NCBI RefSeq assembly: GCF_001422405.1
Contig: NZ_LMMV01000025.1
Coordinates: 359,708-423,707, forward strand
Direction of reading: 5' to 3'
DNA from: Pseudorhodoferax sp. Leaf267
GTDB taxonomy: Bacteria; Pseudomonadota; Gammaproteobacteria; Burkholderiales; Burkholderiaceae_C
DNA length: 64,000 bases
Shown: positions 19,191 to 62,789 of the stretch, in pieces
Numbering within the stretch: the first letter of the stretch is position 1
Layout of the letters: each line of letters opens with the position of its first letter
Translations under genes and position numbers: made by a program
Notes under the pieces: generated by a model
What the model was told of the DNA's origin: nothing
Databases searched by the model: none
The model's input: only the letters and a program-made list of their open reading frames with translations

Positions 19191-19341
19191 CGGCGGGATA
19201 TCGTCGATCTTTGGTATGCAGTTCTCGATGCCGACACCAGCCAGTCCATGCAGGGCAGGCGACCGCATCGGCCTCACGGCATGAAATGAATGCGATAAAG
19301 TACGCTTTGTGGGAACTTCTCCAAGTTTTTTATTCCGTCAC

Positions 19342-20055
19342 ATGCTGGCCGAGATCCCGCGCGGCACGCCCTTGTCCATCCCTTTATTGCGCGCGGGGGG
19401 ATTAGGTGCCAAGCAGGCAGCAAGGCTGGCCGAGAGCGGATGGCTCCAGCGCCTGGGACGCGGCACCTACCTCCTGCCCGGCGATCAACTGGACCGCGAT
19501 GCCGCGCTCGCCACGCTGACCGAGTCGGTCCCCGGGCTGCACGTGGGGGGCAGGACGGCCCTGGCCTGGCGCGGCGTGCGGCACAACCTGGCCTTCACGG
19601 AGCGGCTCAGCCTGTGGGGCGACAAGCCCGCCAGGCTGCCCGAGTGGTTCACTGCGGCGTTCCCTTCCCACTACCAGGCAACCCGGCTGTTCGACGATGG
19701 CCTGGCGGCTGCGTCGGGGCTCGCGCCGCTGCCAGGCGGCCGGCTCGATGTGATGGTGTCCACGCCCGAGCGCGCCGTGCTGGAGCTGTTGAGCGACATC
19801 GGCAAGTCGCAGGGGCTGGAGGAGGCCAGGCACCTTGTCGAGGGCGCCCGCGCCTTGCGCATGCACGTGCTGGAGGAACTGCTGGCCCACCTCACCCGCA
19901 TCAAGGTAGTGCGGCTGGCGCATGCGTTGGCCGACGAGCTCGATCTGCCGTGGAAGGACCTGGCGTGCATGCACAGCGAGCGCCTGGGCGGCGGGCGCCG
20001 TTGGGTGTCCACGACCCGGACCGGTGAGCGCCTCAACCTGAAGCGACCGGCATGA
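19342..20055 (+). CDS. AbiEi-type antitoxin (type IV toxin-antitoxin, transcriptional repressor)
   Basis: 237 residues from ATG 19342 (MLAEIPRGTPLSIPLLRAGG); a GTG at 19309 could add 11 residues, and neither start has a convincing ribosome site. The N-terminal winged-helix (about 1-60, QAARLAESGWLQRLGRGTYLLPG) is the AbiEi DNA-binding module. The rest matches the AbiEi C-terminal antitoxin domain (GLHVGGRTALAWRGVRHNL, VSTPERAVLELLSDIG). AbiEi binds inverted repeats in its own promoter and neutralises the AbiEii nucleotidyltransferase indirectly. It overlaps the toxin gene by 4 bases. This frame is intact although the toxin is broken. Confidence 0.88.
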   Translation: MLAEIPRGTPLSIPLLRAGGLGAKQAARLAESGWLQRLGRGTYLLPGDQLDRDAALATLTESVPGLHVGGRTALAWRGVRHNLAFTERLSLWGDKPARLPEWFTAAFPSHYQATRLFDDGLAAASGLAPLPGGRLDVMVSTPERAVLELLSDIGKSQGLEEARHLVEGARALRMHVLEELLAHLTRIKVVRLAHALADELDLPWKDLACMHSERLGGGRRWVSTTRTGERLNLKRPA

Positions 20056-20970
20056 ACGCGCACTACGTCCGCACCGTGCGGTTGCTGCTGGATGTGGCGC
20101 ATGCGGTGTTCGAGACATCCGCCTTCGCCATGAAGGGCGGCACGGCCTTGAACCTGTTCGTGCAGGACATGCCGCGCCTGTCGGTGGACATCGACGTGGT
20201 CTTCGTGCCGCATGCGTTGCCGCGGGATGAAGCCCTGCGCGCCATTGCCGACGAACTGGCCGCGGCCCAGGCGCGCATCGAAGCGCTGGGGTTCGATGCC
20301 GTGCTGCGCAAGGCCAAGGAGGGCAACGAGGCCAAGCTGTTCGTGCGCAGCGCGAATGTCGAAGTCAAGGTCGAGGTGAACTTCGTCTTCCGCGGCACGG
20401 TGCTGCCCCCCGAGCGCAGGCCGCTGAGCCTGGCGGCACAACAGCTGTTCTCCGCCCATGTCGAGGTGCCCGTGCTGGCGCCGCCCGAGCTGTACGCCAG
20501 CAAGCTCGTGGCCGCCCTGGACCGGCAGCATCCACGCGACCTGTTCGACATGCAACTGATGCTGGCCGGCAATGGCTGGAGCGACGCGCTGCTCGACTGC
20601 TTCGTGGTCTACCTGGCCGCCACCACCGGCCCATGCACGAGGTGCTGTTCCCGAACGAGAAACCACTCCACGCGGTGTTCGAAAACGAGTTCGTGGGCAT
20701 GACGGCGGCCCCGGTGCGCGTGGACGATTTGCTGGCGACCCGGCATCGGTTGATCGACGAACTACCGCGCGCCTTGTTGCCGCGGCACCGGCAGTTCCTG
20801 CTGTCCATGGTGCGTGCCGAGCCGGACTGGGGCCTGCTGCCCCATCCCATCTGGCGCAACTGCCGGCGCTGCAATGGAAGCTGCGCAATCTGGCCCAGTT
20901 ACGCAAGAACGCCGCGAAGTTCAAGCAGCAACAGGACGAGCTCGCGGCACGGCTGGATCGCACGGCGTAG
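20052..20970 (+). pseudogene. AbiEii-type toxin (nucleotidyltransferase), disrupted by two frameshifts
   Basis: The start overlaps the antitoxin stop (ATGA). Residues 1 to ~190 are good AbiEii: FAMKGGTALNLFVQ (the G-G-T-A-L nucleotidyltransferase motif), RLSVDIDVVF (the D-x-D metal motif; commonly S-x-D-x-D), and VAALDRQHPRDLFDMQLML. Near 20622-20626 one base is missing; the next frame continues RPMHEVLFPNEKPLHAVFEN. Near 20840-20850 a second base is missing; the third frame finishes HLAQLPALQWKLRNLAQL to the stop at 20970. Inserting one base at each point gives a full-length toxin of ~305 residues. Catalytic motifs lie before the first break, but the helical C-terminal domain would be lost. 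Two independent breaks argue for true decay. Confidence 0.85.
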
Positions 20971-21009: not shown

Positions 21010-21987
21010 TCAATACGCCGCCCCATGCGCTGCCAGCACCGGATCGCCCTCCAGCGCCGTCGATGCCCGCCCATCCACCCCCACCGGCACCTGCCCCACC
21101 AGCGTGGTGCGGTACAGCTGCCGGTCGAAGTCGAGCGCGAAGATGTCGTTCGGCGGCAGGTGGGCCGTCGAGCGGTTGTCCCAGAACGCGATGGAACCGG
21201 GCTCCCACTTGAAGCGCACCGTGAACTCGCTGCGCACCGCGTGTTCCCACAAAAACTCCAGCAGCACGCGGCTTTCGCGCGCGTGCAGGCCGGTGATGCG
21301 CTTCAGGAAGCCCGGGCTCACGTACAGCACCTTCTCGCCCGTCTCAGGGTGCACGGTGACCAGCGGATGCTCGCTGACCAGGCGGCGCTGCTGCACCAGC
21401 TGCTGGTACTCGGCCGAGGCCTGGGCGCCCACGGGCGCGGCGAACAGATGCTCGCCGCGCAGGCCTTCGACGATGCGCTGCATGGGCTCTGACAGCGCGG
21501 CGTAGGCGGCCGCCAGGTTGGTCCACTGCGTGTCGCCGCCGTAGGGCGGGATCGTCACGCCGCGCAGGATGGACGCGGCCGGCGGGTTGTGCGCGGCCGT
21601 CACGTCGGCATGCCAGCCGGTCCAGGGGCGCTGCTCGGCCTGGCCCGTGTGGCGGTTCGCCTTGCGGTGCTTGGCGATCGAATACAGCTCGGGGTAGCCC
21701 TCGACATGGCCGAACACCGGGTGGCCCACCGTCAGCTCGCCGAACTGGCGCGCGAACGCGATCTGCTGCGCGTGGCTCAGGTGCTGGTCGCGGAAGAACA
21801 CCACCTTCCACTGCAGCAGCGCGGCGCGGATGGTGGCGATCTCGGCGGCGGCCAGCGGCGCGCGCAGGTCCACGCCGTGGATCAGCGCGCCGATGTGGGC
21901 GGACTGCGGCAGCACCTGGATGTGCTGCGTCGCGTCCAGCGCGGTCTGCAGCTGGCGCTGGATGTCGGGGGGCAGGGGCATGTTCAT
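21010..21987 (-). CDS. TauD/TfdA family Fe(II)/2-oxoglutarate dioxygenase
   Basis: 325 residues from the ATG at 21987, preceded by GGAGAC. The iron ligands of the HxD...H facial triad are clear: His126 and Asp128 in TGWHADVTAAHNPP and His276 in NRSTAHLPPNDIF; the 2-oxoglutarate-binding Arg is in QLYRTTL. Length and motif spacing match taurine, 2,4-D and alkylsulfatase dioxygenases, which cleave C-S or C-O bonds by hydroxylation. The upstream gene (26 bases away, same strand) is a tripartite-tricarboxylate-type binding protein, suggesting uptake and oxidative cleavage of an organic acid. The exact substrate is not predictable. Confidence 0.93.
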   Translation of the reverse strand: MNMPLPPDIQRQLQTALDATQHIQVLPQSAHIGALIHGVDLRAPLAAAEIATIRAALLQWKVVFFRDQHLSHAQQIAFARQFGELTVGHPVFGHVEGYPELYSIAKHRKANRHTGQAEQRPWTGWHADVTAAHNPPAASILRGVTIPPYGGDTQWTNLAAAYAALSEPMQRIVEGLRGEHLFAAPVGAQASAEYQQLVQQRRLVSEHPLVTVHPETGEKVLYVSPGFLKRITGLHARESRVLLEFLWEHAVRSEFTVRFKWEPGSIAFWDNRSTAHLPPNDIFALDFDRQLYRTTLVGQVPVGVDGRASTALEGDPVLAAHGAAY

Positions 21988-22013: not shown

Positions 22014-23054
22014 TCAGGGGCGGGCCTGGGCCTGGATCTGCTCGGGTGCGTCCTGCAGGCCCAGCTCGGCCAGCAGCGCGCGCGTCTGCACGATCTGGCG
22101 CTGCACGGACGCCTGCGTGGCCTCGGGGCCCAGGAACTGCGGCTTCCACTGGTTCAGCGCGACGAAGGCCTGCCAGTCCGGCAACTGCGTCACGTGCTGC
22201 AGGGCCTGCACCCAGTAGGCCTTCTGCGCGGGCGTGATGCCGGCCGTGGTCATCACGCCCTGGAACGCCTGGCTCACGTAGTCGATGCCTTGCTCCTTCC
22301 AGGTCGGCGCATTGGCGAAGGCGCCGCCCAGGCGCTCGTCGGCGGCGATCGCGATCACGCGCACGCGGTTGGCCTGCAGGTAGGGCAGCAGGTTGGGCGT
22401 CGTCGCCGAGACCACGTCCAGGTGCCCGCCCGCCAGCGCCGTCATGGACTCGGCCGAGGACTTGTAGGGCACGATGCGCAGCCCCTGGATGGGCACGCCG
22501 GCCTGCTTGAGCGGCTGCGCGATGCCCAGATGGATGTGGTTGCCCAGCGTGGTCGCAATGCCGATGGACAGGCCGCCCGGGTCTCGCCGCAGCGCGGCAA
22601 CCAGGTCCTGCGCGTTCTGGATCGGCGAGTCGGCGCGCACCACCACGGTGGTGAACTCGCGGAACAGCGTGGCCAGCGGCGTGAACGCCTGCAGCCGCGG
22701 CGGCAGCGCGCCCTGGGCCACGCTGGTCACGTAGCCGCTGGACAGCGTCATGAGCAGATTGGCGTTGCCGGGCTGGCGCTGCAGGATGTCCAGCGCCTGG
22801 ATCGAATGCGCGCCCGAGCGGTTGCTGACCACGAAGCCCTCGGCCAGCCCTTCGCGCGTGAGCAGCTCGGTGAGCTTGCGCGCGGCGGCGTCCAGCGCGG
22901 CGCCCGCGCCGCTGGGCACGATGAACTCGGGCTTGCCGGGCTTCCAGCCGGTGTCGTTGGCGGGCGCGGCTCGCGCGGCAGAGGTCCAGGCGGGCAGCAG
23001 GCTGGCGGCCAGGGCCGCGAGCGTGGCGCGGCGGGTGGGGGAAGGGTGCGTCAC
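22014..23054 (-). CDS. Bug/TctC-type solute-binding protein
   Basis: I chose the GTG at 23054, which has GGAGAC upstream and opens a signal with a twin Arg (PTRRATLAALAASLLPAWTS). The 346-residue product then shows the TctC fold: FIVPSGAGAALDAAARKLTELL, where PSGAG replaces the usual P(Y/F)xxGGxxD, and IVPYKSSAESMTALAGGHLDV, the substrate-loop motif normally written VPYKGxAPAxxDLLGGHV. It binds a carboxylated solute in the periplasm. No TctA/TctB membrane genes are nearby, as is usual for the many orphan Bug proteins of Burkholderiales. Likely paired with the downstream TauD-type dioxygenase. Confidence 0.88.
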   Translation of the reverse strand: MTHPSPTRRATLAALAASLLPAWTSAARAAPANDTGWKPGKPEFIVPSGAGAALDAAARKLTELLTREGLAEGFVVSNRSGAHSIQALDILQRQPGNANLLMTLSSGYVTSVAQGALPPRLQAFTPLATLFREFTTVVVRADSPIQNAQDLVAALRRDPGGLSIGIATTLGNHIHLGIAQPLKQAGVPIQGLRIVPYKSSAESMTALAGGHLDVVSATTPNLLPYLQANRVRVIAIAADERLGGAFANAPTWKEQGIDYVSQAFQGVMTTAGITPAQKAYWVQALQHVTQLPDWQAFVALNQWKPQFLGPEATQASVQRQIVQTRALLAELGLQDAPEQIQAQARP

Positions 23055-23227
23055 GGGGCGTCTCCAGGCAGGACGCGCGCCGCATGCAGGCCGACGCGCA
23101 CAAGCGTGCACTCTAGGAAGCCGGCCGGCGCAGGCCAACGAAGCTTTGCGCATGTGCTCATGCGGAAAACGCGTAAGCCGTGGCCTGTGATGCAATGCGC
23201 CATCGCTGCAACCATCGAAGGAATGAC

Positions 23228-25774: not shown

Positions 25775-26620
25775 CTAAGCCCAGGTCTCGATCACCCGGC
25801 TGTCATCGGCCAACCCCAGCCCTGCCTCAGCCGCCTGGCAAAAGCGCGCATGCGCAACCTTCAGCAGTGGCAGCGCCGCGCCGCAGCCCGCGCCGGCCTG
25901 CGCGACGAGCCCGCTGTCCTTCACGAAGATGTCGATGGCGCTGGTCACCTCCACGTCGCCGGTGGCCACCATGCGCGGGCCGCGGTCCGACAGCATCCAC
26001 GAGCCGGCGGCGCCGTCTTTCACGAGGTCCAGCACCGCGGCCGGCTCCAGCCCCAGCCGGCGCGCGAGGTCCAGCGCCTCGGCTGCCGCCGCGATGTGCA
26101 CGGCGCACAGGTGCTGGTTCACGACCTTGATGCTCTGGCCGTCGCCGAGCCGCGCGCCGGTCACGCGCACCGTGCCCATGGGCGCCAGCACCGGGCGGGC
26201 CGCCTCGACATCGCCTGCATCGCCCGACGCGAAGATGAACAGCCCACCGGTCTTCGCCCGCGCCACGCCCCCGGTCACGGGCGCATCGACAACGCGCGCG
26301 CCGCGTTGGCGCAGGGCCTGGCCCTGTTCGCGCACGGCGTCCGGCCCCACCGTGGACATCAGGATCCACAACTGGCCCGGCGGCACGGTGTCGACCGCGC
26401 GCACCAGCCCCGCCAGTTGCGCCGGTGTGGCCACCATCACCACCACCGCGTCGGCCTCCGGTGCAGCGGCCCATTGCGCCACCGTCTCGATGCCCTGGGC
26501 CTTGGCGTTCGCGATGACCGCATCCGACACATCGACCCCGGTGACGCGGTGCCCCGCGCCCTGGACCCGCAAGGCCATCGGCAGGCCGATGGCGCCCACG
26601 CCCACGAACGTGACCTGCAT
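25775..26620 (-). CDS. NAD(P)-dependent 3-hydroxyisobutyrate dehydrogenase-family oxidoreductase, LtnD-like
   Basis: 281 residues. A Rossmann N-terminus (FVGVGAIGLPMALRVQGAGH, G-x-G-x-x-G region) is followed by the substrate motif DAPVTGGVARAKTG and the catalytic Lys in KVVNQHLCAVHIAAAAEALD. The N-Q-H-L-x-x-V-H-I-A-A-A-A-E-A phrase and SWMLSDRGPRM...VTSAIDIFVKDSGLV are the pattern of L-threonate/D-erythronate-type dehydrogenases (LtnD) within this superfamily, rather than of valine-pathway enzymes. It would oxidise a hydroxyl of a short sugar acid. It is the last gene of the leftward operon with transketolase subunits 12 bases upstream; assignment as LtnD-like is inference from motifs. Confidence 0.87.
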   Translation of the reverse strand: MQVTFVGVGAIGLPMALRVQGAGHRVTGVDVSDAVIANAKAQGIETVAQWAAAPEADAVVVMVATPAQLAGLVRAVDTVPPGQLWILMSTVGPDAVREQGQALRQRGARVVDAPVTGGVARAKTGGLFIFASGDAGDVEAARPVLAPMGTVRVTGARLGDGQSIKVVNQHLCAVHIAAAAEALDLARRLGLEPAAVLDLVKDGAAGSWMLSDRGPRMVATGDVEVTSAIDIFVKDSGLVAQAGAGCGAALPLLKVAHARFCQAAEAGLGLADDSRVIETWA

Positions 26621-26632
26621 GCTGCCGCCGGC

Positions 26633-27637
26633 CTACAGCCAGCCCTTGATCTGCGCGCACACGGCCGGCGTCGAGATGCCGTAGCGCTCGTGCAGCGTGG
26701 GCAGCGCGCCCGCGTCCAGGAACGCATCCGGCAGGCCGATCTGGCGGAACTTCGTCGCCACGCCCGAGCGCATGAGCAGAGCGGCCACGGCCTCGCCCAG
26801 CCCGCCGATCACCGAGTGGTTCTCGGCCACCACGACCAGCCGGCCGAGCCTGCGCACCTCGGCCAGGATGGTCGCCTCGTCCAGCGGCTTGATGGTCGGC
26901 ACGTGCAGCACCGCCACGTCCACGCCGTCGGCCTGCAGCTGCTGCGCCGCCTCCAGCGCGCGCATGGTCATGAAGCCGCTGGCGATCACGAGCACGGCGT
27001 TGCCGTCGCGGATCAGCTTGGCCTTGCCCAGCTCGAATCTGTAGTCGTAGTCGTCGAGCACCAGCGGCACGTTGCCGCGCGGCAGCCGCATGTAGACCGG
27101 GCCCTGGTGGTCGGCCATCTGCGGCACGGCCTGCTCGATGTCCAGCGCATCGCAGGGGTCGATGATGGTCAGGCCCGGGATGCCGCGCATCAGCGCCAGG
27201 TCCTCGGTGGCCTGGTGGCTGGGGCCATAGCCCGTGGTCAGGCCGGGCAGCGCGCAGCACATCTTGACGTTGAGGTTCTCCTCGGCGATCACCTGGTGCA
27301 CGAAGTCGTAGGCCCGGCGCGTGCCGAACACGGCATAGGTCGTGGCGAACGGGATGAAGCCCTCCTTCGCCATGCCGCCGGCCGACGCCATCAGCAGCTG
27401 CTCGGCCATGCCCATCTGGAAGAAGCGCTCGGGGTAGGCCTGCGCGAACAGATGCAGGTCGGTGTACTTGGCCAGGTCCGCCGTCATGCCGACGATCTCG
27501 GGCCGCTCGCGGCCCAGCTCGACCAGGGCCTTGCCGAACGGGGCGGCCTTGACGCGCTGGCCCTCGCTGGCGATGGATGCGATCATGGCCGAGGTGGTCA
27601 GCCGCGGCTTCTTGTCTGTCGTGGTGGCGGTGTTCAT
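26633..27637 (-). CDS. Transketolase-like protein, C-terminal subunit
   Basis: 334 residues equal to the pyrimidine-binding and C-terminal domains of transketolase. MGMAEQLLMASAGGMAKEGF contains the catalytic Glu that activates thiamine diphosphate (M-A-E-Q), and FATTYAVFGTRRAYDFVHQ plus TGYGPSHQATEDLALMRGIP complete the cofactor-binding region; a C-terminal transketolase_C domain (IASGFMTMRALEAAQQLQAD) ends it. Its start lies 12 bases beyond the N-terminal subunit's stop. Together they form one split enzyme that transfers a two-carbon ketol unit. Split transketolases with TRAP transporters are known from apulose-phosphate and sulfosugar pathways; the substrate here is unknown. Confidence 0.93.
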   Translation of the reverse strand: MNTATTTDKKPRLTTSAMIASIASEGQRVKAAPFGKALVELGRERPEIVGMTADLAKYTDLHLFAQAYPERFFQMGMAEQLLMASAGGMAKEGFIPFATTYAVFGTRRAYDFVHQVIAEENLNVKMCCALPGLTTGYGPSHQATEDLALMRGIPGLTIIDPCDALDIEQAVPQMADHQGPVYMRLPRGNVPLVLDDYDYRFELGKAKLIRDGNAVLVIASGFMTMRALEAAQQLQADGVDVAVLHVPTIKPLDEATILAEVRRLGRLVVVAENHSVIGGLGEAVAALLMRSGVATKFRQIGLPDAFLDAGALPTLHERYGISTPAVCAQIKGWL

Positions 27638-27649
27638 TGCGATGGCTCC

Positions 27650-28477
27650 TCAGTCTTGCGTGCTGTCGATGTGGGCGATGGCCTGCTGCCATTCCGGCGG
27701 GTCCACGCGGATGAAGTGGTTCTTGTCGCGCGTCTCCAGGAAGGGCACGCCCTTGCCCATCAGCGTGTCGAACAGGATCACGCGGGGCTTGTCGTCCTGG
27801 AGCGCACGCGCCGCGTCGAAGGCTGCGATCACGGCCGCCATGTCGTTGCCGTTCACGCGCTGCACATGCCAGCCGAAGGCCAGCCACTTGTCGGCCAGCG
27901 GCTCGAAGCCCATGACCTTGCCGGACGGGCCGTCGGCCTGCTGGTTGTTGATGTCCACCAGGCAGATCAGGTTGGCCAGCCGGTGGTGCGCCGCGCCCAG
28001 CGCCGCCTCCCAGGTCGATCCCTCGTCCAGCTCGCCGTCGCTCATGGAGTTGTAGACGAAGGCCGGGTTCTTCTTGAGCCGCAGGCCCAGCGCCATGCCG
28101 ACCGCGATCGGCAGGCCCTGGCCCAGCGAGCCGCCCGAGATCTCCATGCCCGGCGTGTAGGTGGCCATGCCCGACATCGGCAGCCGGCTGTCGTCGCTGC
28201 CGTAGCTCTCCAGTTCCTCCTCGGGAATGATGCCGGCCTCCACCAGTGCCGCGTAGAACGCGATGGCGTAATGGCCGTGCGAGAGCAGGAAGCGGTCGCG
28301 GCCCTCCCACGCGGGGTCTTCGGGCCTGTAGGTCATGGCGTGCTTGTAGGCCACGGCCAGCACGTCGGCCCAGCCCAGGGCCTGGCCGATGTAGCCCTGG
28401 CCTTGGACCTCGCCCATGCGCAGGGCGTAGCGGCGCACGCGGTAGGCGCTCTGTTGCAGCGTCGAGAGTTCGGACAT
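27650..28477 (-). CDS. Transketolase-like protein, N-terminal subunit
   Basis: 275 residues; the ATG at 28477 has AAGGAAA upstream. This is the thiamine-diphosphate-binding half: DRFLLSHGHYAIAFYAALVE, GGSLGQGLPIAVGMALGLRL, and the cofactor motif DGELDEGSTWEAALGAAHH through DINNQQADG, which matches G-D-G-E...N-N with Ser replacing the first Gly (SDGE). That substitution occurs in some split transketolases but is worth noting. Together with the next gene it makes a complete active site. Operon position is after the TRAP permease, pointing to a peripheral catabolic role rather than the pentose phosphate pathway. Confidence 0.93.
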   Translation of the reverse strand: MSELSTLQQSAYRVRRYALRMGEVQGQGYIGQALGWADVLAVAYKHAMTYRPEDPAWEGRDRFLLSHGHYAIAFYAALVEAGIIPEEELESYGSDDSRLPMSGMATYTPGMEISGGSLGQGLPIAVGMALGLRLKKNPAFVYNSMSDGELDEGSTWEAALGAAHHRLANLICLVDINNQQADGPSGKVMGFEPLADKWLAFGWHVQRVNGNDMAAVIAAFDAARALQDDKPRVILFDTLMGKGVPFLETRDKNHFIRVDPPEWQQAIAHIDSTQD

Positions 28478-28515
28478 GAGGATTTCCTTGGAGTGGATGG
28501 GAGAGGAATGCAGCA

Positions 28516-30405
28516 TCACAGGAAGCCGATCGAGATCCACGGGACCGCGGCGACGAGAACGGTGCCGATGAACAGCGCCACCATGTAGCCCACGATGGGC
28601 TTCATGCCCTCGTTCGGGTGGATGCCGCTGATCGCGCAGGCCGCGTAGTAGCCCACGCCGAAGGGCGGCGCGAACAGGCCGATGCCCATGGCCAGCGTGA
28701 CCACCATGGCGTAGTGCACTTCGTGGATGCCGACCTGGCGCGCGATCGGGAACAGCAGCGGGCCGAGCAGCACGATGGCCGGGATGCCTTCGAGCACCGA
28801 GCCCAGCACGATGAAGGCCAGTACCGAGACCGCCATGAAGGTGATGGCGCCGCCCGGCAGCGACTGCATGAACTGAGCGAGCGCCGTCGAGAACCCCGAC
28901 TGCGTGAGCGCCCAGGCCATGCCGGTGGCCGCGCCGATGATGAACAGGATGGCGCCCGACAGCGCGGCCGTGCTGACCAGCATCGGGTAGACCCGCTTCC
29001 AGTCGAATTGCCGGTAGATGAACAGGCCCGTCAGCACCGCGTAGACGATGCCGATGGTGGACACCTCGGTGGCCGTGGCCACGCCCTCGACCACCGCGGC
29101 GCGGATGATCACGGGCAGCGCCAGCGCCGGGATGGCGACCCACAGCGACGCGGCGATCTGCCGGCCGGTGGACTTCTGCACGCCCGACAGGTCTTCACCG
29201 CGGTAGCGCCACCACACCAGCGCGGCCAGCGTGATGCCGACCACCACGCCGGGCAGCAGGCCGCCCGTGAACAGCGCGGCGATCGACACGCCCGTGGCCG
29301 AGCCGATGGTGATCAGCACCAGCGAGGGCGGGATGGTCTCGGTCTGCGCGCCGGTGGCCGACAGCAGCGCCACCAGGTCGCCCGGCTTGGCGCCACGCTT
29401 GCGCATCTCGGGGAACAGCGCGGGCGCCACGGCCGCCATGTCGGCCGCCTTGGAGCCCGAGATGCCCGAGACCAGGTACATCGCGCCGATCAGCACATAC
29501 GACAGCCCGCCGCGCACATGGCCCAGCAGGTTCGCCAGGAAGGCCACCATCGCCCGCGCGATGCCGGTCATCTCGATCAACAGCCCCAGCAGCACGAAGA
29601 GCGGCACGGCCAGCAGGATCAGATGGCTCATGCCCTCGTCCATGCGGCCCACGATCACGATGGTGGGCGTGCTGGTGGTCAGCGCGATGTAGCCGAAGGT
29701 GGCCAGGCCGAACGCGAACGCGATGGGCAGGCCGCCCAGCACCATGGCCAGCACGCCGACCACGAAGAACAGCAGCAGGTTCAGGTTGCCCAGCGGCTTG
29801 AGCAGCGGCCCCATCAGCGACAGGGCGCCCGCGATCAGCGCGACCAGGCCGAGGGCCAGCAGCGCGTCCTTCACCGAGCCCAGGCGGAAGATCTGCATCA
29901 GGCCGACCAGCAGCATCAGCCCCAGGCCGATGGGCAGGGCCGCGGCGCGCCAGGAGTTCACGATGCCCATGGCCGGCGTCGTGACGAAGACCTCCTCCTG
30001 CGCGAACTCGTAGGCCGGGTGCACGACGAAGGCCAGGAAGGCCACGGCCGCGGCAATCGCCACCAGGTCGAAGAAGGCGCGCCGCTTCGGTGCCATCTTG
30101 CCCACGATGGCCGTCATGCGCATGTGCTCGCCGCGCTGGAAGGCCACGATGGAGCCCAGCATGGCCAGCCACAGGAACAGGATGGAGGCCAGCTCGTCGG
30201 ACCACGACAGCGGCTCGTGGAACACGTAGCGGCTGGTCACGCCCATCAGCAGCACGACGACCTCGGCCAGCACCAGCAGGGCGGCGGGCACTTCGACCAG
30301 CACGGCGATCAAGCGGTTCAGCTTGTCCAGCCAGGCGACCGGTGTGCGCCGGCCGGCTTCTTCGGCATGCCCGGCCACGCCGGGCACTTCACTTGTGATG
30401 TTCAT
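28516..30405 (-). CDS. Fused TRAP transporter permease (DctQ-DctM fusion)
   Basis: 629 residues. About the first 170 form the small DctQ-type subunit with four helices (FHEPLSWSDELASILFLWLA is its signature). The remaining ~430 are the large DctM-type subunit with ~12 helices, beginning LPIAFAFGLATFGYIAL, with VPLFVLLGLLIEMTGIARAM and GSKAADMAAVAPALFPEM. TRAP permeases use a sodium gradient to import organic acids and related solutes delivered by a DctP-type binding protein, encoded immediately upstream (21 bases). Q-M fusions are common. In this operon it brings the substrate for the dehydrogenases and split transketolase. Confidence 0.94.
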   Translation of the reverse strand: MNITSEVPGVAGHAEEAGRRTPVAWLDKLNRLIAVLVEVPAALLVLAEVVVLLMGVTSRYVFHEPLSWSDELASILFLWLAMLGSIVAFQRGEHMRMTAIVGKMAPKRRAFFDLVAIAAAVAFLAFVVHPAYEFAQEEVFVTTPAMGIVNSWRAAALPIGLGLMLLVGLMQIFRLGSVKDALLALGLVALIAGALSLMGPLLKPLGNLNLLLFFVVGVLAMVLGGLPIAFAFGLATFGYIALTTSTPTIVIVGRMDEGMSHLILLAVPLFVLLGLLIEMTGIARAMVAFLANLLGHVRGGLSYVLIGAMYLVSGISGSKAADMAAVAPALFPEMRKRGAKPGDLVALLSATGAQTETIPPSLVLITIGSATGVSIAALFTGGLLPGVVVGITLAALVWWRYRGEDLSGVQKSTGRQIAASLWVAIPALALPVIIRAAVVEGVATATEVSTIGIVYAVLTGLFIYRQFDWKRVYPMLVSTAALSGAILFIIGAATGMAWALTQSGFSTALAQFMQSLPGGAITFMAVSVLAFIVLGSVLEGIPAIVLLGPLLFPIARQVGIHEVHYAMVVTLAMGIGLFAPPFGVGYYAACAISGIHPNEGMKPIVGYMVALFIGTVLVAAVPWISIGFL

Positions 30406-30426
30406 GGCATGTCTCCGATCAGGCGC

Positions 30427-31449
30427 TCAGCCCAGCTTGCCGGAGACTTTTTCCAGCAGGTCCCACGCGGCGTTGCCGTACTTGCTCTTCCACTCGCCGT
30501 AAAAGCCCGTGCTGGCCAGCTTGCTGCGGAAGTCCTCCTGCGGCACCGTCAGGAAGCTGATGCCCTTGGCCTTCAGGTCGGTCGCCAGGCTGGTGTTGAG
30601 CCTGGCCACGTCGGCGCGCTGGTCGGTGGCCGACTTGTCCAGCTCGCGCGTGATGATTTGCTGCACGTCGGCCGGCAGCTTCTGGAAGGCACGCTTGTTG
30701 CCCAGCACCCAGTAGCCGTCCCACACGTGGCCGGTCAGGCTGCAGGTCTTTTGCACCTCGTACAAACGCGCCGTGGCGATGATGGCCAGCGGGTTCTCCT
30801 GGCCTTCGACCACCTTGGTCTGCAGTGCGGTGTAGACCTCGTTGAAGTTGATGGGCGCGGGGGCCGCGTCCAGCGCCTTGAACAGCGAGGTCAGGGGTGG
30901 CGCGGCGGGCACGCGCACCTTGAAGCCCTTGAGGTCGGCCGCGGTCTTGATCTCGCGCGTGGACGAGGTGACATGGCGGAACCCGTTGTCCCAGATCTTG
31001 GACACCGTGAAGATCGGCGTCTTGGCGATCTCGGCGCGGATGAAGTTGCCCAGCTCGCCGTCCATGGCCTTCCAGACGTCCTCGTAGTTCTTGAACGCGA
31101 AGCCCACGCTGGTGATGCCCGAGACCGGCACGAAGGTGGACAGGATCAGCGAGGACAGGTTGAAGAACTCCACTGAGCCATTGCGCACCTGGGCCAGCAG
31201 GTCGGTGTCGCTGCCGAGCTGGTTGGCCGGGAACAGCTTGATGTTCACGCGGCCCGAGGTGGCTTCGCGGATGCGCTCCAGCGCCTCCTTGGCGCGCAGG
31301 TTGACGGGGTGGGTCGGGTCCTGGCCGGTGGCGTACTTCAGCTCGAACTCGGCCGCGTCGGCACGGCGCGTGGCGATCGAGAAGAGGGGCAGCGCGGTGG
31401 CGCCGGCCAGGATGGAGCGGCGGGTCAGGCCAGTCTTGGGTTGCTTCAT
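30427..31449 (-). CDS. TRAP transporter solute-binding protein (DctP type)
   Basis: 340 residues from the ATG at 31449. The export signal carries a twin Arg (TGLTRRSILAGATALPLFSI), suggesting Tat or Sec export. The mature protein shows the DctP family landmarks: KYATGQDPTHPVNLRAKEAL, GRVNIKLFPANQLGSDTDLL, RNGSVEF and the carboxylate-binding Arg region LKGFKVRVPAAPP, then GQENPLAIIATARLYEVQK. DctP proteins bind sugar acids, C4 acids or similar solutes with high affinity. An intercistronic hairpin precedes it in the operon, which may raise its mRNA relative to the SDR gene. Confidence 0.94.
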   Translation of the reverse strand: MKQPKTGLTRRSILAGATALPLFSIATRRADAAEFELKYATGQDPTHPVNLRAKEALERIREATSGRVNIKLFPANQLGSDTDLLAQVRNGSVEFFNLSSLILSTFVPVSGITSVGFAFKNYEDVWKAMDGELGNFIRAEIAKTPIFTVSKIWDNGFRHVTSSTREIKTAADLKGFKVRVPAAPPLTSLFKALDAAPAPINFNEVYTALQTKVVEGQENPLAIIATARLYEVQKTCSLTGHVWDGYWVLGNKRAFQKLPADVQQIITRELDKSATDQRADVARLNTSLATDLKAKGISFLTVPQEDFRSKLASTGFYGEWKSKYGNAAWDLLEKVSGKLG

Positions 31450-31543
31450 GGTGCTTGTCTCCAGGGGTGAGTGATGGGCCACAGACGGCCGCGACCGGCC
31501 GCTGCCGCTCGTCGGCTTCGGAACTCGAAATGCAGGGGGAGGC

Positions 31544-31562
31544 AGGCCCGGCGCGCGGGCCT
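31544..31562 (-). promoter_or_regulatory. Intercistronic hairpin in the TRAP operon
   Basis: AGGCCCG (31544-31550) and CGGGCCT (31556-31562) form a perfect 7-bp stem with a 5-base GCGCG loop between the SDR and dctP-type genes. No T tract follows on the minus strand, so it may attenuate or stabilise mRNA rather than fully terminate. Confidence 0.4.
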
Positions 31563-31569
31563 CGTGATC

Positions 31570-32319
31570 TCAGTGGATCAACATGCCGCCGTTCACATCC
31601 AGCGTGATGCCGGTGCAGTAGGCGGACAGATCGCTGCCCAGGAACACGCAGGCGCCGGCGATGTCCCTGGGCTGGCCCAGGCGGCCGAGCGGGATGGTCT
31701 CGGCGATCTCGGCCTTCTTCTCTTCGGTCAGCTTGCCCTTGATGATGTCGGTGCCGATCAGGCCGGGCGTGATGCAGTTGACGCGGATGCCGGCCGGGCC
31801 GAGCTCGCGCGCCATGGCACGGGCCAGGCCCAGCACGCCGGCCTTGGCGGCCGAGTAGTGCGGCCCGCCCAGGATGCCGCCGCCGCGCTGCGCCGAGACG
31901 GACGAGATGCAGACGATGGAGCCGCTGCCCTGGCGCTCCATGGCCGGGATCACGGCCTGCGAGCACAGCAGCGTGCCGCGCAGGCTCACGTCCAGCACGG
32001 CGTCGTAGTCGGCGGCCGTGATGTCCACGGTCTTGCGCGGCTGCGTGATGCCGGCGTTGTTGACCAGCACGTCGATGCGGCCGAACTTCTGCAGCACCTG
32101 GGCGACGGCGCGGTCCACGGCGGCCTTGTCGGTCACGCTGGCCACGACGCCCAGGTGTTCGGCGCCCAGTTGCGCGGCGGCCTGGGCCGGCTCGGCGGCC
32201 TCCAGGTCCATGATGGCGACGCGTGCGCCGTGGCTGGCCATTTGCAAAGCGGTGGCGAAACCCAGGCCGTTGAGGCCTGCGCCGCCGGTGATGAGAACGA
32301 CCTTGTGGGTGAGCAACAT
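31570..32319 (-). CDS. SDR family dehydrogenase
   Basis: 249 residues, start ATG 32319. Classical short-chain dehydrogenase: cofactor motif T-G-G-A-G-L-N-G-L-G (variant of TGxxxGxG), acidic DLEAAEPAQ after strand two, indicating NAD(H) preference, NNAG in LVNNAGITQPRKTVDI, catalytic Ser in VCISSVSAQRG, and YSAAK for the Tyr-Lys pair. It probably oxidises a secondary alcohol of the imported substrate. First gene of a leftward operon with TRAP transporter, split transketolase and LtnD-like dehydrogenase, and divergent from a LysR regulator. Confidence 0.94.
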   Translation of the reverse strand: MLLTHKVVLITGGAGLNGLGFATALQMASHGARVAIMDLEAAEPAQAAAQLGAEHLGVVASVTDKAAVDRAVAQVLQKFGRIDVLVNNAGITQPRKTVDITAADYDAVLDVSLRGTLLCSQAVIPAMERQGSGSIVCISSVSAQRGGGILGGPHYSAAKAGVLGLARAMARELGPAGIRVNCITPGLIGTDIIKGKLTEEKKAEIAETIPLGRLGQPRDIAGACVFLGSDLSAYCTGITLDVNGGMLIH

Positions 32320-32437: not shown

Positions 32438-33370
32438 ATGAGCACATCGCTTCCACCCCTGGGCTGCCTGGTCGCGTTCGAGGCCGTGGCCCGGCGCCGC
32501 AACTTCACCACCGCGGCCAACGAGGTGCACCTCACGCCGTCTGCCGTCAGCCACCAGATCGCCAGGCTGGAGCAGTTCCTGGGCATGCGGCTGTTCGAGC
32601 GCAATGCGCGCAACGTGGAGCTGACGCCGGCCGGCGCCGACTACCTGCAGCGCATCACGGGTGCGCTGGCGGCGCTGGGCGCGGCCACCGACAACGCGCG
32701 CAAGGGCGTGCGCAACGCGCTGCACGTGCATTCCACGCCCAGCTTCGCCACGCTGTGGCTGATGCCGCGGCTGGCGGAGTTCGCCAAGGAGCACCCGCAC
32801 ATCGCGCTGACGATGTCGGCCTCCGTCGACCATTCGGATTTCGCGGTCGGCCAGTCCGACATCGACATCCGCTACGGCGCGCCGCACTGGCCGCAGCTGA
32901 CTGTGCGGCCGATCTTCGACGAGCAGGTCATGCCGCTCGCCAGCGCAGCCTTCATCCGCCGCCACCGCATCGCCACGCCCGAGGACCTGCTGCGCGTGCC
33001 GCTGATCCAGTCCACCGTTGGCGTCGTCCAGTGGCCGGACTGGTTCTCGCTGCACCACATGGCGCACACGCCGGCCAGCTACGCCTACCGCTTCGACCGC
33101 GCCTTCATGGCGCTGGACGCGGCCGTGCAAGGGCTGGGTGTGGCGCTGGAGAGCACCTCCATCGGCGAGCCGCTGCTGCGCCAGGGCCGGCTGCGGCCGG
33201 TGTTCGCCGCGGGCGAAGCGCTGCCGGTGCAGGCGCATTTCCTCGTGTACCCGGCGCGGCATGCGCAGCGGCCCGAGCTCGTGAGCTTCGTCGACTGGCT
33301 GCTGGCGCGCGCGGCGCAGCCGCAGGGCGACAAGCGCGTGGCGGCACGGGCCGCGAGTCGCCGCGCCTGA
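32438..33370 (+). CDS. LysR family transcriptional regulator (GcvA-like)
   Basis: 310 residues. An N-terminal winged helix (LVAFEAVARRRNFTTAANEV, LTPSAVSHQIARLEQFLG) and a substrate-binding domain with the GcvA-type phrase VHSTPSFATLWLMPRLAEFA and SDIDIRYGAPHWPQL. It is transcribed away from the SDR/TRAP/transketolase operon, and a palindrome with T-N11-A spacing lies between them, so it is the likely regulator of that operon, with the imported acid or an intermediate as inducer. The C-terminus is basic and Ala-rich (QGDKRVAARAASRRA). Confidence 0.93.
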   Translation: MSTSLPPLGCLVAFEAVARRRNFTTAANEVHLTPSAVSHQIARLEQFLGMRLFERNARNVELTPAGADYLQRITGALAALGAATDNARKGVRNALHVHSTPSFATLWLMPRLAEFAKEHPHIALTMSASVDHSDFAVGQSDIDIRYGAPHWPQLTVRPIFDEQVMPLASAAFIRRHRIATPEDLLRVPLIQSTVGVVQWPDWFSLHHMAHTPASYAYRFDRAFMALDAAVQGLGVALESTSIGEPLLRQGRLRPVFAAGEALPVQAHFLVYPARHAQRPELVSFVDWLLARAAQPQGDKRVAARAASRRA

Positions 33371-58819: not shown

Positions 58820-59776
58820 ATGGCTTGCATGCGTGTAGAGAATGCGAAACCCCTGTTGCCCGCTGCCACGGCACGCGACGAGCTGCCGCGGCTGGATCTG
58901 CTGCGCAGCTTTGCCGTGGCCGCGCGCACGCTGAGCTTCACGCAGGCCGCGCACGAGCTGGCGCTCACGCAGTCGGCCGTCAGCCGGCAGATCCAGCAGA
59001 TGGAGGAGGGCCTGGGCGTGGCCTTGTTCGAGCGCCGCCACCGCGCGCTGGCGCTCACGCCCGCGGGCGAGACCATGGCCCGTGCCGTGCACGACTGCCT
59101 GGAGCGATTGCGAGACGCCACAGCCAGCGTGCGGGCCAGCCAGCGCGCGCGCCAGGTGGCCGTCACCACCACGCCGGGCTTCGCCTCGCTGTGGCTGATC
59201 CCGCGGCTGGCGCGCTTTTCCGCCGACCACCCGCAGGTCGACGTGCTGGTCTCGGCCACCAACGACCTGCTGAACCTGGAGCGCAGCCAGATCGACGTGG
59301 CGGTGCGCTTTTGCGCCATCGGCGCCGGCCAGGGCGCGCCGCTGTTCGAGGAGACCGTGCTGCCCGTCTGCGCGCCGCGCCTGCTGCAGGACGCGGCCCG
59401 CCCTTTGCGCCAGCCGGCCGATTTGGCGCGCCACACGCTGCTGGTCATGGAGGCCCACCACGGCATGCCGCCCATGGCCGACTGGGCGCCCTGGCTGGAG
59501 GTGATGGGCCTGAGTGGCCTGCGCGGCACCAACACCTTGCGCTTTTCCAACTACAACGACGCCGTGGCCGCCGCCCTGGCCGGCCAGGGCGTGGCCATCG
59601 GCCGGCTACCGTTGGTGGCGGCGCTGCTGCGCGATGGCCAGCTCGTCACGCCGTTCGGGGGCAGCGGCCAGTCGCAACGCGGCTACTTCGTCGCGGCCTC
59701 GCCGCAGGCCGCGGCCAATGCCGACGCGCAGGATTTCATCGCCTGGCTGCATGCCGAGGCGCTGCTGCCGTGGTGA
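58820..59776 (+). CDS. LysR family transcriptional regulator
   Basis: 318 residues from ATG 58820; another ATG three codons later is possible, and neither has a clear ribosome site. Winged helix: [40 protein letters not shown]. The effector domain contains [20 protein letters not shown] and [20 protein letters not shown], in the GcvA-like branch. It is divergent from the DUF2917 gene, its likely target. Its stop overlaps the GTG start of the glycosylase gene (GTGA). Confidence 0.92.
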
Positions 59777-60279
59777 GCGCGCCGCTGGAGAGCTTCGCGC
59801 CCGTGGCGCGGCCCAATGCGCGCGTGCTGGTGCTGGGCAGCATGCCGGGCGCGCGCTCGCTCGCGCTGCAGCAGTACTACGGCAATCCGCAGAACGCGTT
59901 CTGGAAAATCATGGGCGCGCTGTTCGGCTTCGACCCCGCGCTCACGCCCTATGCCGAACGCCTGGCCGCGCTGCAGGCCCATGGCGTGGCGCTGTGGGAC
60001 GTGCTGGCCCGCTGCGAGCGCCCCGGCAGCCTGGACAGCGCCATCGTGCCGGACAGTATCGTGCCCAACGACTTCGCGGCCTTCCTGCAGGCGCACCCGC
60101 GCATTGCACGCGTGTGCTTCAACGGCGCCAAGGCCGAAGCCGTGTTCCGCCGCCATGTGGCGCCCGGGCTCGCGCTGCCGCAGCCCATCGAGTTCCTGCG
60201 CCTGCCCTCGACCAGCCCGGCGCACGCCGGCATGCCATTGGCTGCCAAGACCGAAGCCTGGCGCGTCGTGCAGCGCTGA
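59773..60279 (+). CDS. DNA-deoxyinosine (hypoxanthine-DNA) glycosylase, UDG superfamily
   Basis: 168 residues from a GTG that overlaps the LysR stop. The motif [20 protein letters not shown] followed by [10 protein letters not shown] is the characteristic start of family-6 uracil-DNA-glycosylase-superfamily enzymes that remove hypoxanthine (deoxyinosine) from DNA (L-G-S/T-M-P-G-x-x-S-L...Y-Y-x-x-P-x-N-x-F-W). [20 protein letters not shown] and the C-terminal [11 protein letters not shown] are the other conserved blocks. It is a base-excision repair enzyme acting on deaminated adenine. Confidence 0.92.
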
Positions 60280-60335
60280 GCACGCCGCAGTGCCGGTGGA
60301 TAGACTGGCCCGGCCCGACCACCAGAGGAGACAAC

Positions 60336-62789
60336 ATGCACAACGAGAAGGCGCGCCGCGCCATGCCCGCACGCTTCACCTTCTGCGCCCTCGCGCTGGC
60401 CCTGGCCGGCTGCGCCAGCGGCCCGCCCATGGAGATGCGCCCACCCTCGGCCTTCGCCGTGCCGGGCCTGGCGCAACCGGCCGACGTGCTGGTCGACCGC
60501 TGGGGCGTGCCCCATGTCTACGCCGGCAACCAGTACGACGCCTTCCTCGTGCAGGGCTTCATCGCCGCGCGCGACCGGCTCTGGCAGATGGACCTGTGGC
60601 GCAAGCGCGGCCTGGGCGAGATGGCCCGCGACTTCGGCCCCGAGTGGGTGGAGCGCGACCGTGCCGCGCGCGCCGTGCTGTACCGCGGCGACATGTACCG
60701 CGAGTGGCTGGCCTATGGGTCCGACGCCAAGCGCGTGGCCGAGGCCTTCACGGCCGGCGTGAACGCCTACGTGGGCCAGGTGCGCGCCAACCCGGCCTTG
60801 CTGCCGCCCGAGTTCAAGCTGCTGGGCTACCAACCCGCGGCCTGGTCGCCCGAGGACGTGGTACGCATCCGCCACCACGGGCTCACGCTGAACTTCACCT
60901 CCGAGCTGGAGCGCGCGCGCACCTTCTGCGCCGGCCTGGCGGGCGCCAGGGCCGAGTGGCTGCGCCGCGAGCTGGACCCACCCGTCACGCCCAAGCTGGC
61001 CGAGGGCCTGGATCCCTGCGGCATCCCGGCCGCCGAGCTGCGCGCGGCCTACCTGCGCGCCACCGAGTCGCCGCAATTCACCAAGGCCAACACGCCGCTG
61101 GCCTCGGCCACGGCCGACGCGGCCGTCGAACAGCAGGTTGCCCAGGGCGACCCGCTGGGCGCGTACGGCAGCAACAACTGGGTCATCGCGCCGCGCCTGA
61201 GTGCCACCGGCCGGCCCATCCTGGCCAACGACCCGCACCGCGCGCACGGCGCGCCCAGCCTTCGCTACATGGCGCACCTGAGCGCGCCCGGCATGGACGC
61301 CATCGGCGCGGGCGAGCCCTTCCTGCCGGGCCTGTCGATCGGCCACAACGGCACCATCGCCTTCGGCCTCACGCGCTTCTACATGGACCAGGAAGACCTG
61401 TACGTGTACGAGCTCAACCCGCAGAACCCGCAGGAGTACCGCTACCAGGGCCGCTGGGAGCCCATGACGCGCGTGACCGAGCGCATCGCCGTGCGCGGCG
61501 AGGCCCAGCCGCGCGAGCTCGTCAACCACTTCACGCGCCATGGCCCGGTGCTGCTGGCCGAGCCCGGCAAGCAACGCGCCTATGCGCTGCGCGCGGCCTG
61601 GCTGGAGCAGGGCATGGCGCCTTACTTCGGCTCGATGGACTACATGCGCGCGCAGAACTGGGACCAGTTCCGCGCCGCCATGAACCGCTGGGGCGCGCCG
61701 GGCGAGAACCAGGTCTACGCCGACCGCCACGGCAACGTGGGCTGGATCCCGGGCGGGCTCACGCCGATCCGGCCAAACTGGGACGGCCTGTCGCCCGTGC
61801 CCGGCGACGGGCGCTACGAGTGGTCGGGCTTTCGCAACGGCGACGAGTTGCCGTGGGAGTTCAACCCCGCGCGCGGCTACGTGGTCACGGCCAACGAGAA
61901 CAACATCCCGCCCGGCCACCCCGCAGCCACCAAGGGCGTGGGCTACGAGTGGAGCGACGCGGCGCGTGCGCTGCGGCTGAAGAAGCTGTTCCAGGACAAG
62001 GCCGCTGCGGGCGGGCGCTTCACGCTGGAAGACTCCGAGCGCATGCAGAACGACATCGTGTCCACGCCCGCGCAGCGCGTGCTGGTGCTGCTCAGGGGCT
62101 TGCGCAGCGACGATGCGCAGACCGCAGCCGGCCTGCGCTTGCTGCAAGGCTGGGACGGCACGATGGACAAGGACAGCGCCGCCGCCGCGCTGTACGAAGT
62201 GTGGGCAGGCAAGACCCTGCGCCAGGCCGTGCTCAAGGCCGGTGCCGGCGAGGCCGCCGCGCTGGCCGGCACGGGCGACAACACGCGCATGGTGCTGCTG
62301 CTCGAAGACCCGACGGGCTGGATGAGCCCTGCGCAACGCGATGCGCTGCTGCTGCAAAGCCTGCCGGCCGCGATGGCGGAGCTGACCACCAAGCTCGGTG
62401 CCGACCCGGCGCGCTGGACCTGGGGCGCACTGCACCGCGCCGAGTTCCGCCATCCGCTCGGCGCGGTCGTCGATGCGGCCACGCGCAAGCAGCTCGACGT
62501 GGGCGACTGGCCCATGTCCGGCTCGGCCTTCACGCCCATGGCCGCCACCTACCGCGCGAGCGATTACAAGCTGACCTCGGGCGCCTCGTTCCGCATGGTG
62601 CTGGACGTGGGCAACTGGGACGCCTCGCGCGTGATCAACACGCCGGGCCAGTCCGGCAACCCGGCCAGCCCGAACTACCGCGATTTGGCGCCGCTGTGGC
62701 TGGACGGCAAGTACGTGCCGCTGGTCTACAGCCGTGCCGCGGTGGAGCGCGCCACCGTGGAGCGCATCCGGCTCACGCCGGGCAACTGA
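60336..62789 (+). CDS. Penicillin acylase family lipoprotein
   Basis: 817 residues; AGAGGAG precedes ATG 60336. A signal peptide with lipobox LAGC (CALALALAGCAS) anchors the protein. N-terminal alpha-subunit region with DVLVDRWGVPHVYA, FIAARDRLWQMDLWRKRGLG. The Ntn-hydrolase nucleophile is Ser279 in AYGSNNWVIAPRLSATGRPI, the S-N-N-W start of the beta subunit that forms by self-cleavage; oxyanion residues lie in LANDPHR and GLSIGHNGTIAFGLT. Such acylases cleave acyl-homoserine lactones, beta-lactam side chains or other N-acyl compounds. As a periplasmic lipoprotein it may act in quorum quenching; substrate untested. Confidence 0.94.
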   Translation: MHNEKARRAMPARFTFCALALALAGCASGPPMEMRPPSAFAVPGLAQPADVLVDRWGVPHVYAGNQYDAFLVQGFIAARDRLWQMDLWRKRGLGEMARDFGPEWVERDRAARAVLYRGDMYREWLAYGSDAKRVAEAFTAGVNAYVGQVRANPALLPPEFKLLGYQPAAWSPEDVVRIRHHGLTLNFTSELERARTFCAGLAGARAEWLRRELDPPVTPKLAEGLDPCGIPAAELRAAYLRATESPQFTKANTPLASATADAAVEQQVAQGDPLGAYGSNNWVIAPRLSATGRPILANDPHRAHGAPSLRYMAHLSAPGMDAIGAGEPFLPGLSIGHNGTIAFGLTRFYMDQEDLYVYELNPQNPQEYRYQGRWEPMTRVTERIAVRGEAQPRELVNHFTRHGPVLLAEPGKQRAYALRAAWLEQGMAPYFGSMDYMRAQNWDQFRAAMNRWGAPGENQVYADRHGNVGWIPGGLTPIRPNWDGLSPVPGDGRYEWSGFRNGDELPWEFNPARGYVVTANENNIPPGHPAATKGVGYEWSDAARALRLKKLFQDKAAAGGRFTLEDSERMQNDIVSTPAQRVLVLLRGLRSDDAQTAAGLRLLQGWDGTMDKDSAAAALYEVWAGKTLRQAVLKAGAGEAAALAGTGDNTRMVLLLEDPTGWMSPAQRDALLLQSLPAAMAELTTKLGADPARWTWGALHRAEFRHPLGAVVDAATRKQLDVGDWPMSGSAFTPMAATYRASDYKLTSGASFRMVLDVGNWDASRVINTPGQSGNPASPNYRDLAPLWLDGKYVPLVYSRAAVERATVERIRLTPGN

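Follow-up and report, generated by a model that had tools for sequence, protein, structure and literature searches.

The window analysed here, a stretch of 64,000 nucleotides from contig NZ_LMMV01000025.1 of Pseudorhodoferax sp. Leaf267, contains a leftward operon of six genes (25775-32319) that encodes a short-chain dehydrogenase/reductase (SDR), a tripartite ATP-independent periplasmic (TRAP) transporter, the two halves of a split transketolase (TKN and TKC) and a beta-hydroxyacid dehydrogenase (HDH; Table 1). Their positions and strand and, by Pfam, their identities agree with the initial annotation of the window. All six reading frames are open, with intergenic gaps of 12, 12, 38, 21 and 120 bases on going from HDH through TKC, TKN, DctQM and DctP to the SDR gene, and the joint presence of DctP, DctQ and DctM domains identifies the transporter as a TRAP system by Pfam. 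With intact frames and the same gene combination seen in other genomes, a chance grouping of the six is excluded. The LysR gene that diverges from the operon likely encodes its regulator.

Table 1. Genes of the split-transketolase operon and the divergent regulator gene, in window positions.
Gene product	Position	Strand	Pfam domains
SDR dehydrogenase, 249 amino acids, first gene of the operon	31570-32319	-	adh_short_C2
DctP, TRAP solute-binding protein	30427-31449	-	DctP
DctQM, fused TRAP permease, 629 amino acids	28516-30405	-	DctQ (residues 49-175), DctM (residues 215-624)
TKN, transketolase N-terminal half, thiamine diphosphate (ThDP)-binding	27650-28477	-	Transketolase_N
TKC, transketolase C-terminal half	26633-27637	-	Transket_pyr, Transketolase_C
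HDH, beta-hydroxyacid dehydrogenase of the L-threonate dehydrogenase / tartronate semialdehyde reductase family	25775-26620	-	
LysR (GcvA-like) regulator, divergent	32438-33370	+	HTH_1, LysR_substrate

Neither a kinase nor an aldolase is encoded in the operon or among the 26 window proteins scanned with Pfam, which are a subset of the window's open reading frames (ORFs). The annotation had pointed to this absence, and to that extent it stands; three PF07005 kinases (DUF1537-type, sugar-acid-type) are encoded elsewhere in the genome. The host genome (6.53 Mb, 27 contigs) also encodes a glyoxylate carboligase. Its two full-length transketolases each score more than 500 bits against the Pfam model, and the split pair thus comes on top of these.

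When each species was represented by one genome, the best 80 of at least 567 loci (79-93% identity) were kept, the nearest being those of Variovorax and other Burkholderiales; this selection makes the locus counts lean towards close relatives. The SDR, TKN and TKC genes, usually with a LysR gene, were found together across Alpha-, Beta- and Gammaproteobacteria. Gene presence was counted by tblastn, with thresholds of our choosing, in loci that extend 3.9 kb or more to either side of the middle of TKC. This excluded 20 of 106 loci from a first count, leaving 86 (85 distinct), and 21 of 117 from an extended count, leaving 96 (95 distinct); ORFs in these relatives were called by a GC-bias heuristic that placed some on the wrong strand. 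Across the 85 distinct loci of the first count, TKN is present in 83, an SDR of the window type in 79 and a LysR protein of at least 38% identity in 78. Transporters vary more: a TRAP transporter of the window type occurs in 23 and a second TRAP type in 47, with major facilitator superfamily (MFS) or ATP-binding cassette (ABC) transporters taking their place in other loci. An LtnD-like dehydrogenase of either type is found in just 18 loci, 16 of which carry a second type; HDH relatives of the window's own type directly follow TKC in the other two (L015 at 74% and L169 at 62% identity; L and G numbers are our handles for loci and genomes). The SDR is thus the defining partner and the LtnD-like dehydrogenase an optional member of the operon, whereas the initial annotation had anchored the pathway on the latter. 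The family assignment itself survives in a weaker form, in that L-threonate dehydrogenase is the best-matching family of HDH but its score against NF043037 (210 bits) falls short of the cut-off of 350, as does its score against the tartronate semialdehyde reductase model TIGR01505 (144 bits, cut-off 340.75).

At 50% identity the SDR is absent from six of the 86 loci (L020, L056, L065, L088, L150 and L169) and, in the extended count, also from L216, where a gene annotated as 3-oxoacyl-ACP (acyl carrier protein) reductase stands in its place. The L169 operon, carried by the K. aerogenes plasmid pYD-K10_1, which is typed as conjugative, consists, in this order, of LysR, TKN, TKC, HDH and MFS genes and has no SDR, which suggests that SDR and HDH may substitute for each other.

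The pairing of the SDR with the transketolase was also examined across the phylum, in a sample of 299 genomes, where the searches scored only the best few candidates per genome (nine for the SDR, seven for TKC and DctP); three such samples were taken as identical, as their handles and number agree. TKC at 70% identity or more was found at 14 loci in 13 genomes, host included, and more distant relatives (39-56%) in three further genomes. The SDR at 58% or more gave 14 matches in 13 genomes, and 13 of these 14 lie within 5 kb of a TKC-type transketolase. There were two exceptions: G352 has the transketolase without a window-type SDR, and G105 (L209, 7938-12664) has the SDR together with a xylose-isomerase-like TIM barrel and a TRAP transporter, without a TKC-type transketolase. 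A DAK-like gene (34% identity) lies at a greater distance from the SDR in G105, an arrangement in which the SDR product perhaps takes a different route that involves a kinase. In a plasmid collection TKC was detected in 196 records, 189 of them at 60% identity or more and a few of them chromosome-sized, while the SDR-TKN-TKC unit occurs in five of 5426 complete E. coli genomes, four times on the chromosome and once on a plasmid. The annotated records examined label the enzyme just 'transketolase', beside an 'SDR', a 'glucose 1-dehydrogenase' or a '3-oxoacyl-ACP reductase', and full-text searches of the open-licence literature, from which most subscription papers are missing, listed no account of the unit.

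To compare active sites, TKN and TKC were aligned with E. coli TktA, whose numbering is used here, and with the two canonical transketolases of the host; the alignments hold 104 TKN rows (99 distinct) and 107 TKC rows (102 distinct), rows below 60% identity or too short being omitted. The canonical enzymes, including both host copies, retain H26, H100, R358, S385, H461, D469 and R520. We take H100 to contact the C1 hydroxyl of ketol donors. The equivalents of the other six are among the substrate-binding residues of transketolase (PMC4601599). In the split family, Y replaces H26 and S replaces H100 in all 103 readable TKN rows (one of the 104 is masked), while all 107 TKC rows have L at 461, have lost D469 with a shortened loop and read K-Y-T around 385. 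The replacement of S385 is ambiguous by one column, being Y in an ungapped pairwise alignment with 6YAJ and T by MAFFT. Arg is not retained at 358, where A is the usual replacement, although another Arg, three residues further upstream, is conserved. The ThDP and metal residues H66, G114, D155, N185, E411 and H473 are all present, as are all three Pfam domains, which places the pair in the transketolase superfamily; H261 and R520 are also retained. Of the residues that mark a sugar-phosphate transketolase (EC 2.2.1.1), R520 alone is kept in place.

Another 20 loci share these motifs, the most distant being that of Arthrobacter, an actinobacterium, at 62-63% identity, although the H100 motif of L211 was not located by our script. 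L151 (54-56%) has the same pocket signature, and L152 (38-43%) shares Y26, L461 and the loss of D469, whereas position 100 holds I and the Y of K-Y-T is exchanged for S. Judged by alignment, the pair is a split transketolase without most of its sugar-phosphate-binding residues and with its cofactor residues kept. Because most of the phosphate-binding residues are gone, these changes fit a two-carbon cleavage of an unphosphorylated substrate. A second, full-length transketolase is encoded in 17 of the 85 distinct loci, and the sole member aligned (L085, 14673-16676) carries R358I, S385P and D469N. A D-2-hydroxyacid dehydrogenase gene occurs in ten loci, all of them among these 17.

The closest solved relative of both halves is the Carboxydothermus split transketolase (6YAK for TKN and 6YAJ for TKC), which is divided into two chains in the same way. 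It has H at each of positions 26, 100 and 461, in contrast to Y, S and L in the window pair, and 6YAJ has S opposite the Y of K-Y-T. AptAB, the apulose-4-phosphate transketolase, is likewise split and encoded in a sugar catabolic operon, and it uses the product of a kinase; we liken it to the window pair by description, not by sequence.

The annotation took known split transketolases to act on sugar phosphates, a premise that is contradicted by SqwGH and Rif15, both of them published on non-phosphate substrates. SqwGH is a split alpha2beta2 transketolase that acts on 6-deoxy-6-sulfofructose, and it resembles the window pair as a split enzyme for a sugar without phosphate, encoded in a catabolic operon (PMC9594981, PMC11659671). 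Ordinary transketolases carry the phosphate motif RSFHR and SqwGH carries RAFDR, with both Arg residues kept (PMC11659671). If the F of this motif is TktA F434, as we assumed, the window family has A, Y or T, Y, L and R at positions 358, 385, 434, 461 and 520, which is neither RAFDR nor RSFHR. Rif15, the two-chain transketolase of rifamycin biosynthesis, is similar in using a non-phosphate acceptor, rifamycin S, but it is biosynthetic and the donors tested were sugar phosphates and dihydroxyacetone (PMC6002545). The pneumococcal ula2 operon also encodes a split transketolase, TktN/TktC, and is induced by ascorbic acid, but import is through a phosphotransferase system and neither an SDR nor a TRAP protein is among its five genes (PMC4324149). 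The Ltn/Otn pathway (LtnD, OtnI, OtnK and OtnC) shares an LtnD-family dehydrogenase and the four-carbon sugar-acid substrates guessed at below (PMC12540250), but requires a kinase and an aldolase-family decarboxylase (OtnC), neither of which is in the window operon, and HDH lies far under the LtnD cut-off. Split transketolases that act on non-phosphate substrates are therefore already published, and it is the altered pocket of the SDR-linked family that is the new result.

The best solved relative of the SDR is 7KRK (E 5.8e-93). DctP is 58% identical to its closest solved relative, 4OAN (Rhodopseudomonas palustris RPB_2686), which we take to have been modelled with 2-acetolactate, and the second TRAP type is nearest to 4P47, 4P9K, 4PDD, 4NQ8, 4P1L and 4PDH, several of which are presumably binders of D-erythronate or pantoate. 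Published TRAP ligands include both 2-acetolactate and pantoate/D-erythronate, the structures being left unnamed in the part consulted (PMC5812351). R179 of DctP is invariant in an alignment of 23 sequences and is taken to be the carboxylate-binding Arg of TRAP proteins (PMC4646407).

The gene content, the conserved pairing of SDR and transketolase and the altered pocket are direct observations, and two conserved enzymes with an importer suggest an oxidation followed by C-C cleavage. With slightly less than even confidence, we propose that the operon serves the catabolism of a small unphosphorylated sugar acid, whichever acid this may be, by oxidation and then a kinase-free, ThDP-dependent C-C cleavage. 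A small sugar acid is indicated by accessory genes of some relatives, namely a lactonase-like amidohydrolase with a ribose-type ABC transporter (seven of the 96 loci in the extended count, 95 of them distinct), hydroxyacid dehydrogenases and glycerate kinase. The invariant Arg of the TRAP protein and the glyoxylate carboligase of the host, together with these accessory genes, point to an acid as the substrate class.

According to this proposal, the TRAP transporter would import the acid, and the SDR would oxidise a hydroxyl group to give a keto acid whose carbonyl adjoins the C-C bond that is then broken. This carbonyl would be attacked by the split ThDP enzyme, which would cleave the bond without the help of a kinase; retro-acyloin chemistry needs no phosphate, and the keto acid could be a direct donor for a ThDP enzyme. 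Two products would result. One would be a shortened oxo acid, namely glyoxylate, tartronate semialdehyde or hydroxypyruvate according to the substrate used; the other would be a two-carbon unit bound to ThDP, either handed on to an acceptor or set free as an aldehyde. For the LtnD/GarR-like dehydrogenase there are two candidate roles, feeding another acid into this pathway by oxidation or reducing the oxo acid to glycerate. A tetronate would yield a two-carbon unit and glyoxylate, on which the host carboligase could act, whereas a pentonate would yield tartronate semialdehyde, with the HDH family and a glycerate kinase as natural next steps. We infer the order of the steps, the keto acid and the cleavage, and only guess at the substrate and the acceptor: a four-carbon acid, erythronate or threonate, passing through 3-oxo-tetronate, is our first guess, and we would call any single substrate unlikely. 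The annotation had also proposed kinase-free use of an unphosphorylated substrate, which is supported in that no kinase belongs to the conserved unit and most phosphate-binding residues are lost, but not in the role given to the LtnD-like partner.

Several observations weigh against the oxidation-and-cleavage proposal. R520 is retained, and the conserved Arg near the R358 position is only three residues away from it, so some phosphate may still be bound. Two other split transketolases (L099 and L100, 37-41%) have H26 and H100 yet likewise lack S385, H461 and D469, so part of the pocket signature is not unique to the SDR-linked family. A DAK-type kinase adjoins the transketolase in L015, L077, L088 and L051, and the sugar-type ABC transporters of some loci could import a neutral compound. 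Among the 24 4OAN-like proteins listed from the 299 genomes, three (68-100%) lie beside the transketolase and 21 (45-57%) elsewhere, with a coenzyme A-ligase-family gene nearby in the nine of these regions that were fetched (by Pfam in four, by clustering in five). The TRAP protein is therefore a weak guide to the ligand, and likeness to 4OAN was not used to choose a substrate. Finally, the loss of H100 would favour a methyl-ketone donor over transfer of a glycolaldehyde unit.

A methyl-ketone donor would be a special case of the proposed scheme, its probability being contained in that of the whole. A terminal-deoxy or methyl-branched hydroxy acid would be degraded: the SDR would make CH3-CO-C(OH)R-COO-, from which the ThDP enzyme would remove an acetyl or acetaldehyde unit, like a reversed acetolactate synthase. 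Besides the change of H100 to S, the more hydrophobic pocket (L461, Y26) fits this chemistry, and so does the presumed 2-acetolactate of 4OAN, one of the TRAP ligands listed above, although 21 of the 24 4OAN-like proteins are not next to the transketolase. In E. coli 99COLEC (L211, 8666-11955) the order MFS-SDR-TKN-TKC is followed directly 3' of TKC by an adhE-family gene, with an RraA-like gene following as well; however, this is the only adhE-family gene in the 96 loci, and AdhE also accepts glycolaldehyde. Similarly, L-fuconolactonase is the best NCBIfam match of the two lactonase-like proteins that were scanned, but their scores, 104 and 141 bits, are below its cut-off of 400. We consider this case distinctly unlikely.

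The split pair could instead be an ordinary transketolase that was copied into a sugar operon, is supplied with sugar phosphates by kinases encoded elsewhere and has pocket changes that only tune its specificity; in our view this is equally improbable. The three DUF1537-type kinases of the host could serve it, R520, H66, H261, H473 and E411 are retained, a DAK kinase occurs with RpiB in L077 and L088, and the loss of part of the phosphate site in L099 and L100 would be in keeping with it. Against this, the loss of H26, H100, S385, H461 and D469 is a fixed trait of the family, the host still has its two canonical transketolases, and DAK was found in just three of the 85 loci and glycerate 2-kinase in four, other kinases not having been sought.

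A second special case, again counted within the general scheme, is a five-carbon acid that the SDR would convert to a 4-keto-pentonate; the ThDP enzyme would move C4-C5 to an aldose (phosphate), and HDH would reduce the tartronate semialdehyde left over to glycerate. The HDH family includes tartronate semialdehyde reductase, and some loci encode glycerate 2-kinase and hydroxypyruvate-reductase-like proteins. However, an LtnD-like HDH is rare among the loci, that of the window scores far under the reductase cut-off, and H100 is lost, and we regard this case as very improbable. Degradation of apiose or apionate is a lead at most, suggested by DRL-family genes (L035, L036, L051 and L057) and by DAK, RpiB and TIM-barrel genes (the last in three of the 85 loci) beside the unit in a few loci. 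A sulfonate reading, by analogy with YihU and SqwGH, was set aside, as the pocket motif differs and no sulfonate-specific gene was present among those scanned.

Three other features of the window were recorded. An AbiEi-type antitoxin gene (PF11459) adjoins a gene for an AbiEii nucleotidyl-transferase toxin (PF08843) at 19309-20702 on the forward strand, forming a type IV toxin-antitoxin pair. On the reverse strand, a gene for a TctC-type binding protein (22014-23195) is followed by one for a TauD/TfdA-family dioxygenase (21010-21987). A forward ORF (59514-62789) encodes a protein of 1091 amino acids in which a penicillin-amidase domain (PF01804, 703 bits) spans residues 322-1078, and the long N-terminal part of this protein may reflect a wrong start call.

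Overall, the split pair appears to belong to a coherent, widespread and apparently uncharacterised subfamily of transketolases that is nearly always accompanied by one SDR and whose function we infer from sequence. A bolder reading, which we hold to be doubtful, is that this is an undescribed class of ThDP lyase or transferase, widespread and partly plasmid-borne, by which free sugar acids are degraded through oxidation and retro-acyloin cleavage with no kinase. The SDR would then make HOCH2-CO-C(OH)R-COO- or its CH3-CO- analogue, and the split enzyme would cut this keto acid into a two-carbon unit and glyoxylate, hydroxypyruvate or pyruvate, the reverse of the acetohydroxyacid-synthase reaction carried out on a transketolase fold. 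Should the pocket changes have the meaning suggested here, many enzymes that are now named transketolase would open a separate route for sugar acids, with plant-associated bacteria among their hosts.

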